Origin: an uncultured Bacteroidota bacterium
GTDB lineage: Bacteria; Bacteroidota; Bacteroidia; B-17B0; Aurantibacillaceae
Assembly: GCA_937873155.1 (NCBI GenBank)
Contig: CALMVZ010000013.1
Location: forward strand, 248,001-312,000
Direction: 5' to 3'
Length of the DNA: 64,000 bases
Position numbers and translations under genes: made by a program. The notes beneath the pieces are model-generated. The model was given only the letters and a program-made list of their open reading frames with translations, was not told where the DNA came from and ran no database searches. Positions 50,674 to 56,180 of the stretch are shown piece by piece (the stretch's first letter is position 1; each line of letters begins with the position of its first letter).

Positions 50674-50844
50674 CTATTTATTCTTCTTTAAAAATTCTTT
50701 TACTTGTTTTACTGTCCGGCCGCCGGTCAGAACTGCGTTGATCAATTCATTTTTCCTACAATCCAACTTTTCACACCAGTATTCTATTTCGTTCTTGTCG
50801 AAAATATCGATCGTTTTATTTATCGGTTTTCCTGTTTTCGGCAT
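50674..50844 (-). CDS. DUF3606 domain protein, first gene of the small-gene run
   Basis: 56 residues from the Met at 50844 (MPKTGKPINKTIDIFDKNEI); a longer frame to 50931 would overlap the operator-like repeats and lacks support. The DUF3606 pattern is clear: INKTIDIFDKNEIEYWCEKL, then CRKNELINAVLTGG, then VKQVKEFL. These are small helical proteins found widely with no known role. Confidence 0.78.
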   Translation of the reverse strand: MPKTGKPINKTIDIFDKNEIEYWCEKLDCRKNELINAVLTGGRTVKQVKEFLKKNK

Positions 50845-50893
50845 CAGAAAAATGTAATGAACTAAAGTAGATGAAGTGTTTAGTTTTATCAAC

Positions 50894-50956
50894 GGGCGTA
50901 AACACCCCTTTTTGGCTATGGGTGAAAACACCCTATTGCATGCGTGTTTTCACGGG
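50894..50956. promoter_or_regulatory. Cluster of three GGGTGAAAACACCC-type inverted repeats
   Basis: Sites are gggcgtaaacacccc (50894-50908), gggtgaaaacaccc (50920-50933) and, inverted, gcgtgttttcacggg (50942-50956). Centres are about 25 and 22 bp apart, roughly two helical turns. The second and third also form a larger hairpin (gtgaaaacac / gtgttttcac). They lie between the divergent DUF3606 run and the 51016 signalling unit, so they could control both. Confidence 0.6.
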
Positions 50957-51015
50957 TTTATGTTTTTTATTAAAAAGATAATCTACTGTAAAGTAGCTGT
51001 TTATGAATTCAAGGT

Positions 51016-51450
51016 ATGACGAAAGCCGGAATCAAAAATCCTGCGAAAAATACTTTTGGAATCAAAAAAATGAAAAAGAAAATTAATGTAACACGCAAAG
51101 GAAAAATAAGTTTAAGCGAATTAGGAAGAATTATTAAAAAGTTCACCGGCTTTGAGGATCATCGTATCAGTTTGCAAGAAGCCTCTGCAATGACGAGAGC
51201 ATATAGGGAAACTCATCCCGGGCAAACCATAGGCCACTTTTTTGGTAAAAATGCTATAGTGGATATATTAAATCAAAACGGTTGTGTTGGAATAAGAATT
51301 TATTACGCCAATGATCCTTCAACCGGTCAACAACATTTGGTTATAGTTGGTGCGGATGCTGATCAGAATGATATTTTTAGTGGGTATATTGCAGAAAGGG
51401 CAATGCGTTGTCCCACAAATTGCGGCAATCCAAATCCGCTTAATTCATAA
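51016..51450 (+). CDS. Conserved Bacteroidota hypothetical with CPxxCGxxNPL tail, first gene of a signalling unit
   Basis: 144 residues; an internal Met at 51070 (MKKKINVT) is an alternative start. The C-terminal ~95 residues carry ISLQEASAMTRAYRETHPGQ, then HFFGKNAIVDILNQNGCVGIRIYYA, then HLVIVGADADQNDIFSG and a cysteine tail MRCPTNCGNPNPL. I recall similar proteins from other Bacteroidota with the same ASAMTRxYR...GCVGIRIYYA...GxDxxxND order and a Cys-containing tail, but none with a known function. It is 23 bp upstream of a multi-pass membrane protein gene, with kinase and regulator genes following. Confidence 0.72.
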   Translation: MTKAGIKNPAKNTFGIKKMKKKINVTRKGKISLSELGRIIKKFTGFEDHRISLQEASAMTRAYRETHPGQTIGHFFGKNAIVDILNQNGCVGIRIYYANDPSTGQQHLVIVGADADQNDIFSGYIAERAMRCPTNCGNPNPLNS

Positions 51451-51473
51451 ATTGAAAAAGATTATCTTTAACA

Positions 51474-52121
51474 ATGAATTTAAAAAGTTTTTACAGTAAT
51501 TTACAAGTTGTATCCGGCTTTTCAATATTTGTTACTTTACTTTTTGTACTACTTTACCGAAAAAGTATTTCAAAAAAATTTGTTCCTTTAGCGATCCTTG
51601 TCGGAATTGCTTGTATAACCGAAGTGATAAATTTTGTTTTTCTTGCTAAAGATCAGAATAACGATTTAGTAATACGAGTATACACTATTTTTGAAGCAGT
51701 TCTGATTTCTTATTTTTATTTTCTGTTTTTTAAAGGGAGTTTTAGTGCAAATTGGTTTTTAATAATACTTATTATTTTCTTTTTTGTGGCGATTATTGAT
51801 CTATATTTTAATGGTATTCAAAATTTTGATAATTATGCTACCTCATTTGAATCTATTACATTTTCCGCAATGTCATTATGGGCCTTTTATTTTATTGCAA
51901 AAAAGTTCCTTTTTGAAAAAATATTGAGTGAACCGGTATTTTGGTTTAATGCTGGCATATTAATCTACTTTGGCGGAAATTTAATTCTCTTTATTTTCGA
52001 TAACTACATGCTTAAATACCGAACTTCAAGTCATATTGCTCTTTGGACCATGCACTCAGTCCTCAATATTTTTTATAATATTATCTTAGCGGTTGGATTT
52101 TGGAAAACGAAGCGGGCATAG
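51474..52121 (+). CDS. Multi-pass membrane protein of the kinase operon
   Basis: A 215-residue protein with six or seven hydrophobic helices (about 12-28, 36-58, 70-88, 92-112, 128-146, 156-178, 188-210), no signal peptide and few charged residues outside loops. Its 3' end overlaps the kinase gene by 22 bp, so they are co-translated. It could be the sensory module in split form for the kinase that follows, which has only one helix of its own. No family recognised. Confidence 0.72.
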   Translation: MNLKSFYSNLQVVSGFSIFVTLLFVLLYRKSISKKFVPLAILVGIACITEVINFVFLAKDQNNDLVIRVYTIFEAVLISYFYFLFFKGSFSANWFLIILIIFFFVAIIDLYFNGIQNFDNYATSFESITFSAMSLWAFYFIAKKFLFEKILSEPVFWFNAGILIYFGGNLILFIFDNYMLKYRTSSHIALWTMHSVLNIFYNIILAVGFWKTKRA

Positions 52122-52915
52122 AGATTCCTATTTTGATTGTAATTGCTACAGTCGGGATACTTGTTTTCATATTCTTTGTGATCCTTTTTGTTCTGTTCTA
52201 TCAAAAGAAGGAATTAAAGAATAAAGTATTGAATGAGGAGAAGGAAAAGAACCATCAGCGAGAATTACTGAATGCAACAATTGAGATCGCCGAAGCAGAA
52301 CGCAGGCGAATTGCAGATAATCTTCATGATGATATAGGCGCCATTATTAACCTGGTTAAACTTAATATCGGAAAAATAGAGAGAAGTACTTCGGATAAGA
52401 CTGTTGTGAAGGAATTAAGTAATGAAAGCGCAGGCCTTTTAGAAACTACCATGGAGAATATCCGGAGTATTTCACGTGACCTGGCACCGCCTGTTTTAAG
52501 GCAGTTAGGATTTGAAGAAGGGCTTAATGACCTGTGTCAGAAATTAAATAATTCAGGGGCTGTTAAAATAAATTTTACCAGGCCCGGTAAGGAAATAAAA
52601 ATGCCGCAAAAAACAGAACTGCAACTTTACCGCATCATTCAGGAGGTTATTAATAATACCTTAAAACATGCGGCGGCCACTGAAATAAGTATCAGCCTGA
52701 ATTCTTTTTCTGATAAATTTGTAGTGATGTTGATCCATAATGGTAAGGGCATAACTAATATTTCAATTGACGCTTTAATGAGGGACGGTAAAGGTTTAGG
52801 TTTAAAAAGCATTCAAAGCAGGGCGCAGATCATCAACGCCGTTGTAAACTATAGCAGTAACAATGCATCATCATCGATACTAATTGAAACACCTTTACAT
52901 GAAAAGAACGTTTAA
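52100..52915 (+). CDS. NarX-type (HisKA_3) sensor histidine kinase
   Basis: 271 residues. The TTG start at 52100 is required to include the transmembrane helix (IPILIVIATVGILVFIFFVI, about 9-33); no ATG lies before it. A coiled coil (about 36-60) leads to the phosphoacceptor helix AEAERRRIADNLHDDIGAII with His76. The ATP-binding domain shows the N box IIQEVINNTLKHA and the G box GKGLGLKSIQSR. There is no large sensor domain, so input probably comes from the membrane protein encoded just upstream. The regulator gene overlaps the 3' end by 17 bp. Confidence 0.9.
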   Translation: MENEAGIEIPILIVIATVGILVFIFFVILFVLFYQKKELKNKVLNEEKEKNHQRELLNATIEIAEAERRRIADNLHDDIGAIINLVKLNIGKIERSTSDKTVVKELSNESAGLLETTMENIRSISRDLAPPVLRQLGFEEGLNDLCQKLNNSGAVKINFTRPGKEIKMPQKTELQLYRIIQEVINNTLKHAAATEISISLNSFSDKFVVMLIHNGKGITNISIDALMRDGKGLGLKSIQSRAQIINAVVNYSSNNASSSILIETPLHEKNV

Positions 52916-53552
52916 GATCGCGATAGCTGATGACCAGCTTTTGTTCAGGAAAGGATTAATATCTATGCTAAAGGATTTTCCTGAAGTAAATATTGTTATA
53001 GAGGTTGGTGATGGCGATGAGTTGCTGGAGGAAATGAAGAAGAAAAAAGTGGATATAGTGCTGCTCGATCTTCAGATGCCTAAGATCGATGGTTTCGAAG
53101 CAACAGAAACTATTAGTAAAAAGTATCCTGATGTTAAGATCATTATTCTTACAACACATAATGAGGAATCTTTCATCCATCATTTAATAAAGAAAGGCGC
53201 GCACGGGTTCATTGTTAAAGACCAGGATATAGAAGTGATAATTGATGCTATATATGGTGTAATCGGTAACGGGTATTATTTTAATGACCGTGTTTCACGG
53301 GCGATGGTGAAAGGATTAATAGAGAGTGACAAAATAAGACCGACGTTCAGGAAAGTGAGCTTAAGTCCGCGGGAATTAGAGATAGTAACCCTAATGAGCA
53401 AAGAATACACGGCAAAGGAGATAGCGGAAAAATTATTTATCAGTGAAAGAACTGTTGATGGTCACCGGGAAAGAATACTTGAAAAAACAAAGGCGCGTAA
53501 CACGGTTGGCATTGTTATGTATGCTGTTAAACATCATTTGTTAGATCTCTGA
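52899..53552 (+). CDS. NarL/FixJ-family response regulator
   Basis: 217 residues from the ATG at 52899. The receiver domain (about 4-122) has acidic DD (11-12), phospho-acceptor Asp57 in LLDLQMPKIDG, Thr in IILTTHNEES and Lys in FIVKDQD. The LuxR-type helix-turn-helix is at about 150-212 (LSPRELEIVTLMSKEYTAKE, then LFISERTVDGHRERILEKT). It is the output of the kinase encoded upstream. The GGGGTGAAAACACCCC repeat 26 bp after its stop, and three similar sites before the operon, are candidate targets. Confidence 0.93.
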   Translation: MKRTFKIAIADDQLLFRKGLISMLKDFPEVNIVIEVGDGDELLEEMKKKKVDIVLLDLQMPKIDGFEATETISKKYPDVKIIILTTHNEESFIHHLIKKGAHGFIVKDQDIEVIIDAIYGVIGNGYYFNDRVSRAMVKGLIESDKIRPTFRKVSLSPRELEIVTLMSKEYTAKEIAEKLFISERTVDGHRERILEKTKARNTVGIVMYAVKHHLLDL

Positions 53553-53578
53553 TTTTTGAAAAATTGATTGTTTAGTAC

Positions 53579-53594
53579 GGGGTGAAAACACCCC
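53579..53594. promoter_or_regulatory. GGGGTG-AAAA-CACCCC inverted repeat after the regulator gene
   Basis: A 6-bp perfect arm pair with an A4 centre, 26 bp after the stop codon at 53552 and followed by attttt. It may be an operator matching those at 50894-50956, or a short intrinsic terminator, or both. Confidence 0.55.
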
Positions 53595-53757: not shown

Positions 53758-53958
53758 ATGGGATATTTCGAGCATAAACAAAAACTCGATAGCGCTATTT
53801 TTTTTATTAAAAACAGATCGGCTGTTAATGTAGATTCATTGTCTGAGAAATTAAGTGTATCACGGCGAACTGTTCTAAGGTTAGTTGATGAGATCAAACT
53901 TCAAGGTATCGATCTTAAGTTCTGTAAGAAGCGTAAAGTTTATTTTATTGAAGAATAA
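53758..53958 (+). CDS. Tiny winged-helix DNA-binding protein
   Basis: A 66-residue protein that is a single HTH_11/DeoR-like winged helix: KLDSAIFFIKNRSAVNVDSL, then SEKLSVSRRTVLRLVDEIKL (recognition helix), then a beta wing IDLKFCKKRKVYFIEE. It has no effector domain. It lies directly upstream of three tandem genes of one repeat family, with a 10-bp perfect palindrome between, so it probably regulates them. The 205-bp region before it has no clear promoter match. Confidence 0.82.
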   Translation: MGYFEHKQKLDSAIFFIKNRSAVNVDSLSEKLSVSRRTVLRLVDEIKLQGIDLKFCKKRKVYFIEE

Positions 53959-53977: not shown

Positions 53978-54000
53978 TGAGTGCCAAGTTTTGGCACTCA
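53978..54000. promoter_or_regulatory. Perfect 10-bp palindrome TGAGTGCCAA-GTT-TTGGCACTCA
   Basis: It lies 20 bp after the winged-helix gene and 34 bp before the first repeat-family gene. The arms are perfect with a 3-nt centre, which suits a dimeric regulator. On the minus strand the hairpin is followed by a T run, so it could also stop antisense transcription; on the plus strand there is no T run after it. Confidence 0.65.
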
Positions 54001-54033
54001 CTCCAGATAGTTTTGTTACATAATTCAAAGATT

Positions 54034-54465
54034 ATGTTACATTATCAGACAGGTCAGCTTTTAAATGCAACCGAGACCAATATAAATGAGCGGGTTAAGT
54101 ATACCGCGAACACCGGCGTTGTAATTGTAGACACTGCAAATACAAACACAGATGGTACAGGAACATTAGGGACTGTAATAACAGGTGCATCCAATGGCAC
54201 ATTAATACAAACTATAACAGTAAAGGGTATTGCTACTGATACTCCCGGTATGGTAAGGTTGTTCATTTATGACGGCACAAGCGTAACAGCTTTGATTGAT
54301 GAAATAGATATCCCGGCTGTAACACAATCATCCATTCAGCAAGCCTTTGAAGTTTGTTATGATGTTGATATTAGCCTTAAAAGCGGATGGTCTTTAAAAG
54401 CAAGTACACAAACAGGCGATGATTTTATAATAATTGCTGAAGGTTTGGATTACGCATATCCATAA
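54034..54465 (+). CDS. One-unit member of a repeated ~125-residue domain family
   Basis: 143 residues from the ATG at 54034. It has no signal peptide. One copy of the unit is present: VKYTANTGVVIVDTANTNTDGTG..., TGASNGTLIQTITVKGIA, GMVRLFIYDGTSVTALIDEI, then SGWSLKASTQTGDDF and IIAEGLDYAYP. The pattern predicts an all-beta jelly-roll-like domain. It is the first of three tandem paralogous genes. No annotated family comes to mind. Confidence 0.72.
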   Translation: MLHYQTGQLLNATETNINERVKYTANTGVVIVDTANTNTDGTGTLGTVITGASNGTLIQTITVKGIATDTPGMVRLFIYDGTSVTALIDEIDIPAVTQSSIQQAFEVCYDVDISLKSGWSLKASTQTGDDFIIIAEGLDYAYP

Positions 54466-54518
54466 GATTGCTTTAAAAACAAATAAACATAAATATTTAA
54501 AAATTAAACTATAAAAAT

Positions 54519-55334
54519 ATGGCAGCAGAAACACAATACACGGCAAACACAGGATTAGTTCAGATCACTACAGCAAACACTTCGCTTACAGGTTCAGGTA
54601 CTGTTGGTACCGACATTTATAATGTTATTACAGGTGCATCAAATGGTACTTTAATAAAATCTTTTATCATAAAATCAATAGCTGCTACTTCAGAAGGAAT
54701 GGTGCGGTTATTTGTTTATGATGGTACAAATACCAGACTTTTAAATGAAATTCATGTTCCCGCCAATACTCCATCGGCAACCAATCCGGCATTTGAATAT
54801 ACATGGAATTGTAATATTAAATTGGAATCAGGTTTTATAATAAGGGCAACAACGCAAACAGGTGATGATTTTAATATCATTGCGGAAGGTTTAGATTGGG
54901 CTTATTATGGAAGCGGGGTTAGGCCTGAAAGCACTAACTATACTGCTAATACCGGTGTTACATTGATCACTACAGCAAACACTTCATTAACCGGATCAGG
55001 CACATTGAATACTGATATTTGGACAGTTATTGCAGCCGGTGCATCCGGATCAGGCTGGAAAGGCTTAAAAATAGAGTCGATAAATATTAAAGCTATTGTA
55101 ACTACAACAATGGGAATGGTGAGATTGTTTTTGTACGACGGAACAAATACGAGATTAATGACTGAAATACCTGTTCCTGCTGTTACACAATCTGCAACCG
55201 AACCAACTTTTGAACGTAAAATTACACTTGGCAACTTTAACCTTAAGGCCGGTTGGGAAATAAGGGCTACTACTGAGAAAAGCGAATCGATCTCAATAAT
55301 CGCAGAAGGTAACGATTGGAAATACCCTGCTTAA
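54519..55334 (+). CDS. Two-unit member of the repeated ~125-residue domain family
   Basis: A 271-residue protein with no signal peptide. Two units run about 3-133 and 140-271, each with YTANTGxxxITTANTSLTGSGT, an NGTLIK or SGWKGLKI strand, GMVRLFxYDGTNTRLxxEI and an IIAEGxDW end. The first unit ends GLDWAYYG and the second GNDWKYPA. The three genes share the unit order, so this gene came from the one-unit form by internal duplication, or the reverse by loss. It starts 53 bp after the previous gene. Confidence 0.75.
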   Translation: MAAETQYTANTGLVQITTANTSLTGSGTVGTDIYNVITGASNGTLIKSFIIKSIAATSEGMVRLFVYDGTNTRLLNEIHVPANTPSATNPAFEYTWNCNIKLESGFIIRATTQTGDDFNIIAEGLDWAYYGSGVRPESTNYTANTGVTLITTANTSLTGSGTLNTDIWTVIAAGASGSGWKGLKIESINIKAIVTTTMGMVRLFLYDGTNTRLMTEIPVPAVTQSATEPTFERKITLGNFNLKAGWEIRATTEKSESISIIAEGNDWKYPA

Positions 55335-55379
55335 TTAATGCACATTGAATTTTGAATTTTTAAATTATTGAATTAAAAC

Positions 55380-56180
55380 ATGGCAGAAGAAACGCAATAT
55401 ACAGGAAATTCAGGCGTAGCTATTTTAACTACCGCCAATTCTAACCTTAACGGGACCGGCACTTTGGCAACAATTTTAACCGGTGCTTCTAACGGCACCC
55501 TGATTAAAAATCTTTTCATAAAACTAAGGGTTACGTCAACTTCAGGCATGGTTCGTTTTTATATTGATGATGCTACAGGGAGCAATATCCGTTTATTAAC
55601 TGAAGTTAAAGTACCGGCACGGGCACAAGCAAGTACCAGCACAACTTTTGAAGCACGCATCCCTATCAACTTTTGTTTAAAAGCAGGGTACATATTAAAA
55701 GCTTCAATACAAAATGCACAATCAACAATTGTGTACGCCGAAGGTTTAAACTGGGCCTATTATGCTACTTCGGTTAGACACGATACAACACTTTATACTG
55801 CGAATAACGGGATAGCACAAATATCAACGGCAAATAATACATTAACCGGAGGTACGACAGTACAAATATGTGCAGCAGGTGCTTCCGCTTCCGGGTTTAA
55901 AGGCCTATCCATAAGTGAGATCACAATAAAAGGTAGTGTAAGCGTTAATCCGGGTATGGTTAGAATTTGGGCAAAAACCACCGGCGCTGTAAAGTATGTT
56001 TTATGGGAAATCCCTGTACCTACTGTAACAAAATCAGGCACGGATCAAACATTTACGCATACAATTGTTTTTGATAACGATTTTGAATTACCTGCTGATT
56101 GGAGTTTATGGGCAAGTACCGAACTGGCAGAGAACTTTAATGTTATTGCCATTGGCAACGATTGGAAATATGAAGCGTAA
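55380..56180 (+). CDS. Second two-unit member of the repeated ~125-residue domain family
   Basis: A 266-residue protein with no signal peptide. Two units run about 3-130 and 137-266 (YTGNSGVAILTTANSNLNGTG, TGASNGTLIKNLFIK, GMVRFYIDDATGSNIRLLTE; then YTANNGIAQISTANNTLTGG, GMVRIWAKTTGAVKYVLWEI). The first unit again ends GLNWAYYA and the second GNDWKYEA, like the preceding gene, so this gene is a duplicate of the two-unit gene. Function unknown. Confidence 0.75.
   Translation: MAEETQYTGNSGVAILTTANSNLNGTGTLATILTGASNGTLIKNLFIKLRVTSTSGMVRFYIDDATGSNIRLLTEVKVPARAQASTSTTFEARIPINFCLKAGYILKASIQNAQSTIVYAEGLNWAYYATSVRHDTTLYTANNGIAQISTANNTLTGGTTVQICAAGASASGFKGLSISEITIKGSVSVNPGMVRIWAKTTGAVKYVLWEIPVPTVTKSGTDQTFTHTIVFDNDFELPADWSLWASTELAENFNVIAIGNDWKYEA

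Follow-up and report, generated by a model that had tools for sequence, protein, structure and literature searches.

Response regulators of the NarL family bind as dimers to inverted repeats. In NarX/NarL- and VraS/VraR-type systems such a regulator, built of Response_reg and GerE domains, is paired with a kinase carrying HisKA_3 and HATPase_c domains, and kinases of the NarX type carry their own sensor. Other signalling systems, such as sensory rhodopsin II / HtrII and further 7TM receptor-transducer pairs, use a separate 7TM protein adjoining its signalling partner. The closest described operator is that of the NarL-family regulator ComA of Bacillus subtilis, which recognizes the inverted repeat TTGCGG-N4-CCGCAA with an optimal spacer of 4 nt (PMC4797271).

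The locus studied here lies in the window, by which we mean the whole 64,000-nucleotide stretch of Bacteroidota DNA that was analysed. It contains a unit of four genes, coding for a small Cys-tailed protein, a 7TM membrane protein, a HisKA_3 kinase and a NarL/FixJ-family response regulator, accompanied by inverted repeats. As with ComA, a NarL/FixJ-family regulator is encoded within a signalling operon next to inverted repeats with a 4-nt spacer that would serve as dimer sites. The ComA operator however combines a single inverted repeat with a direct repeat, whereas here two to four inverted repeats stand in tandem 21-27 bp apart; the half-site xxGTR, the 7TM partner and the sensorless kinase are features of the present system. 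Kinase and regulator have the domains of the NarX/NarL and VraS/VraR types, but a membrane anchor is all that the kinase has in place of a sensor, and a gene for a separate 7TM protein always precedes that of the kinase. This arrangement resembles sensory rhodopsin II / HtrII, from which it differs in that the 7TM protein belongs to no sequence family and has no significant structural match, its coupling to the kinase being presumed. We propose, with a probability of about 0.84, that the repeats at 50894-50955 are dimer-binding operators of the operon's own NarL-type regulator, through which it would control both its own operon and the divergent gene.

Results

The regulator matches PF00072 and PF00196 above the cut-offs, i.e. 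the receiver and GerE/LuxR-type HTH of the NarL/FixJ family, and its best relatives in the PDB are VraR, NarL and DevR. The kinase matches PF07730 (HisKA_3) and PF02518 (HATPase_c) above the cut-offs, as expected of a HisKA_3 histidine kinase, and no sensor domain was found in it. The membrane protein matches nothing in Pfam or NCBIfam; its predicted structural model, of high confidence (pLDDT 94.5), shows seven helices, and the weak best matches of a PDB fold search were 7TM receptors and rhodopsins, none of them significant (best E 0.031). A microbial rhodopsin was considered and rejected, there being no Pfam match and no internal lysine in helix 7 (about 184-210), where K207 and K209 stand only at the end. 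The Cys-tailed protein is small and soluble, without a match in Pfam or NCBIfam, and a fold search with its predicted model (pLDDT 84.5) gave no significant match. In the window this protein carries an N-terminal extension not seen in its orthologs. An inner ATG at 51070, giving 126 aa and a site-to-start distance nearer to that of the orthologs, may be the true start.

Table 1. Coordinates of the genes, inverted repeats and candidate promoter elements in the window.
Feature	Position	Strand	Remarks
Divergent DUF3606 gene (PF12244)	50674-50844	-	start at 50844 taken from homology
Candidate -7 element of leftward promoter	50862-50869	-	TACTTTAG; 5/6 to TAnnTTTG; 24 bp from site 1; weak
Candidate -33 TTG of leftward promoter	50890-50892		paired with TACTTTAG; weak
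Putative operator site 1 (distal)	50894-50907	.	GGGCG-TAAA-CACCC; one non-pairing position
Putative operator site 2	50920-50933	.	GGGTG-AAAA-CACCC; perfect
Putative operator site 3 (proximal to four-gene operon)	50942-50955	.	GCGTG-TTTT-CACGG; reversed orientation
Small Cys-tailed protein	51016-51450	+	no Pfam family
Membrane protein	51474-52121	+	predicted seven-helix bundle
HisKA_3 / HATPase_c histidine kinase	52100-52915	+	one N-terminal hydrophobic stretch
NarL/FixJ-family response regulator	52884-53552	+	Response_reg + GerE; ATG 52899; recognition helix SERTVDGHRERIL
Site 4 (3' of regulator gene)	53579-53594	.	GGGGTG-AAAA-CACCCC; probable operator, possible intrinsic terminator
Third perfect GGGTG-N4-CACCC of the genome	25194-25207	.	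single site, intergenic, divergent genes either side

The unit of Cys-tailed protein, 7TM protein, sensorless HisKA_3 kinase and NarL-type regulator is conserved across Bacteroidota and beyond. Of 87 genomes from the same family, 40 encode a relative of the Cys-tailed protein (41 by profile); in a sample of 395 genomes drawn from the class the figure is 74, weak matches counted in. Named records with such relatives include Bacteroidota, Ignavibacteria, Zixibacteria and Neomarinimicrobiota, many being metagenome bins, and a search of a plasmid collection returned no relative. The order of the four genes is the same in nearly all ortholog loci. Searches of the open-access literature for the four-gene unit and of the literature for the repeat motif found no paper on either.

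The four inverted repeats that a sequence-only reading of this DNA had pointed out are all present where it placed them. It had also put them about two helical turns apart, which holds for sites 2 and 3 (22 bp start to start, about 2.1 turns) and fails for sites 1 and 2 (26 bp, about 2.5 turns). Site 3 is diverged, with perfect pairing limited to CGTG/CACG. The GTG start that the ORF caller assigned to the divergent gene falls within site 2; since homology to DUF3606 starts at the ATG at 50844, and not at this GTG, sites 1-3 are intergenic. The tandem inverted-repeat score of the intergenic region (50845-51015, 171 bp) was reached by none of 20,000 dinucleotide-preserving shuffles, and amounts to 49 at this locus, against 25 for the second-highest position in the window. 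In the whole 4.85 Mb genome the exact sequence GGGTGAAAACACCC occurs twice, both times at the four-gene operon, and GGGTG-N4-CACCC with zero mismatch three times, all within the window (25194, 50920 and 53580). The first of these is possibly a further target, or else due to chance. The plain count of the 14-mer, which with 3 mismatches totals 8 in the window, is unexceptional taken alone; the locus stands out by its tandem arrangement and its exact copies.

Absence of the repeats beside orthologous operons had been named in the same reading as grounds for giving up the idea. The window's literal motif is indeed missing from almost all ortholog loci, and this at first looked like a refutation until lineage-specific repeats were seen upstream of the orthologs: two to four tandem inverted repeats, their letters differing from locus to locus. 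An earlier half-site scan, lacking a background model and a spacing, had been swamped by A+T-rich matches. We scanned 146 non-identical loci from -300 to -70 relative to the start for chains of sites with the same half-site and a spacing of 20-28 bp, assessing significance by log-odds scoring against shuffles. With a 4-nt spacer, tandem inverted repeats were found at 51 of the 146 loci at p<=0.01 and at 63 at p<=0.05. At p<=0.01 the odd-spacer controls (3, 5 and 7) gave 4, 6 and 6 of these loci and a coding control 1 kb downstream gave 1 of 135. The even spacers 2 and 6 also score, as expected of palindromes with a shared centre, and the largest number of significant loci was obtained with spacer 4, the spacer of the ComA-type NarL-family operator. 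At the remaining 83 loci no tandem repeat reached significance (p>0.05), though some of them, e.g. L129, have asymmetric sites that the scan misses.

The geometry of these chains is that of the window. Distances between adjacent sites, taken without a spacing constraint, peak at 22-23 and 25-26 bp; sites lie 21-27 bp apart and usually wider distally, the most distal interval exceeding the next in 24 of the 27 loci that have at least three sites. The window's own 26/22 spacing recurs at L089 and L130. Near-literal triads are retained at L129 and L130, the window's nearest relatives outside its genus, again with 26/22 spacing and a likewise reversed third site, and with arms that mix GTG and GTA, as in AGGTG-AAAA-CACCC of L130. 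Beside orthologs it is thus the architecture that has been kept, and at most loci the literal sequence has not. At L083, of the same genus, the recognition helix SVRSVDGHRERIL is nearly identical to that of the window, yet there is one degenerate site only and no clear triad.

Half-sites are mostly xxGTR (most xxGTA), with the xx specific to each locus; that of the window is GGGTG, and a minority class has AGGG or AGGGA. For 34 loci the sites were significant and the regulator could be aligned; in these we compared the outer two bases of the half-site with the recognition helix. With receiver distance removed the two are correlated (partial Mantel r=0.376, p=0.0002), and the outer bases do not follow the receiver once helix distance is removed (r=0.059, p=0.17). 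When the set is reduced to 23 representatives sharing less than 70% identity, the correlation with the helix persists (r=0.307, p=0.0003) and the receiver given the helix again shows none (r=-0.056, p=0.81). With receiver distance likewise removed, the full 5-bp half-site gave a marginal result (r=0.15, p=0.058), and the inner bases do not follow the helix, so that the dependence holds for the outer two bases only. Characteristic pairs are TVD[NH]HK with AGGTA, TIE[SG]HRYN with AAGTA and TVEG[HY]RKS with ACGTA; the regulators of L060 and L076, 35% identical, have the helices IENLR and IENIR (TIEN[LI]R) and both go with GAGTA. The correlation is moderate in size, Mantel tests remove phylogeny imperfectly, and the outer bases were chosen after the sites had been seen, so that we regard it as strong though not blind evidence.

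Together with the ortholog architecture and the ComA-like 4-nt spacer, this co-variation supports the claim of the sequence-only reading that the repeats are targets of the adjacent regulator. They might instead be operators of another DNA-binding protein, such as the HTH_11 protein at 53758 or a global regulator, the NarL-type regulator acting elsewhere. Two loci speak for this: at L069 and L080 clear AGGGA sites occur with no regulator gene adjoining the kinase. We nevertheless consider it quite unlikely, as the locus-specific half-sites track the recognition helix of the operon's own regulator and the motif is confined genome-wide to this operon, unlike the site of a global regulator. The sites of L069 and L080 form triads of the type TAGGGA-N4-TCCCTA beside a kinase in an operon that has no regulator gene, and the protein binding them must therefore be encoded elsewhere in those genomes.

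Site 4 lies 27 bp past the regulator stop and folds at -11.2 kcal/mol, with ATTTTT after it. Among 27 non-redundant loci with enough sequence, repeats with the same half-site occur within 250 bp after the regulator in 8 (11 sites), the window's site 4 among them; they are about 64-fold denser there than in the rest of the loci, and the reversed half-site control gave none. Because such repeats recur just 3' of the regulator in these 8 loci, site 4 is probably an operator for what follows, and it may double as a transcript terminator. A small HTH_11 protein (53758-53958) directly after site 4 is a candidate target. A strong terminator-like hairpin, TGAGTGCCAAAACTTGGCACTCA, with a T run is found on the minus strand at 53978-54000.

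The properties of site 4 also bear on whether the repeats act as RNA, i.e. as intrinsic terminators or other hairpins such as attenuators, and not as protein-binding DNA. Its fold and T run would fit, and RNA stems would likewise keep inverted repeats conserved. Site 1, however, folds at -4.5 kcal/mol, no better than shuffles, and sites 1-3 separate divergent genes, an arrangement in which there is no transcript to be terminated. We accordingly rejected sites 1-3 as intrinsic terminators, and the earlier suggestion that the 50894 repeat could be a short terminator appears unlikely, given that its fold is weak and no gene reads into it. At many orthologs the sites (AAGTA, GAGTA) contain too much A+T to act as terminators, and the downstream copies in other loci are A+T-rich as well and often paired. 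An Rfam search gave no match, and hairpins leave unexplained the identical tandem half-sites, their 22-26 bp phasing and the correlation with the recognition helix. On balance we hold a role as RNA in place of protein binding to be very improbable. A dispersed REP-like element or chance can practically be dismissed: palindromes this short and GC-rich would suit REP elements, but these have many copies and the 4.85 Mb genome holds two exact ones, both here, while chance is at odds with 0 of 20,000 shuffles and with orthologs sharing the geometry in other letters.

Discussion

If the repeats are operators of the operon's own regulator, a signalling route can be outlined. Since the kinase has no sensor and the gene order is constant, we infer that the 7TM protein perceives the input and regulates the HisKA_3 kinase. 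This kinase would in turn phosphorylate the NarL-type regulator, and dimers of the phosphorylated regulator would sit on each of the GGGTG-N4-CACCC-type sites 1-3, the two proximal ones about two turns apart and the distal one half a turn out of phase. From there the regulator would control the rightward operon, i.e. its own expression, and the leftward DUF3606 gene. Site 4 would probably be a further operator for the genes that follow and could also end the transcript.

Leftward control had originally been proposed for a divergent run of seven genes. Comparison across genomes supports it for the first gene only: DUF3606 lies divergently upstream of the operon, with the repeats in between, at 25 of 147 loci including the window. 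At L058 the DUF3606 gene instead lies 3' of the regulator, and there it is preceded by a pair of same-half-site repeats of its own. The literature searched holds two mentions of DUF3606, both incidental. The candidate TTG / TACTTTAG pair of the leftward promoter puts site 1 near -43, a typical position for an activator. As the candidate promoter places the distal site there, activation seems slightly more likely than repression. A perfect TAnnTTTG 23-24 bp from the distal site was seen at 4 of 36 non-redundant loci, which is suggestive only.

From a broader point of view, we give even odds to the idea that the four genes form an undescribed widespread signalling unit, often with a divergent DUF3606 gene, in whose copies operator letters and recognition helix drift together while the triad geometry is kept and paralogs are insulated from one another. 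If this were correct, the ortholog loci would represent a naturally occurring set from which the protein-DNA code of NarL/LuxR-type helices could be read. It would follow a testable rule, with a fixed geometry and two variable base pairs per half-site that depend on a few recognition-helix residues, and would provide ready natural variants for DNA specificity tests in the NarL/LuxR superfamily. Operators and regulons could then be predicted in a simple way across a large group of two-component systems of the Bacteroidota that await characterisation, and the 7TM protein would be a candidate receptor feeding a kinase without a sensor of its own. A second copy of the four-gene unit is present in the same genome (L085, G000:C38:70088-70384), with GTA-type half-sites (GAGTA/GGGTA) and the helix TVDNHRLN. 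This suggests that paralogous copies may be insulated by their differing operator letters. The region 3' of the unit in the window (54013-56180) holds three consecutive genes of repeated YTANTG...TANT modules (150-271 aa).
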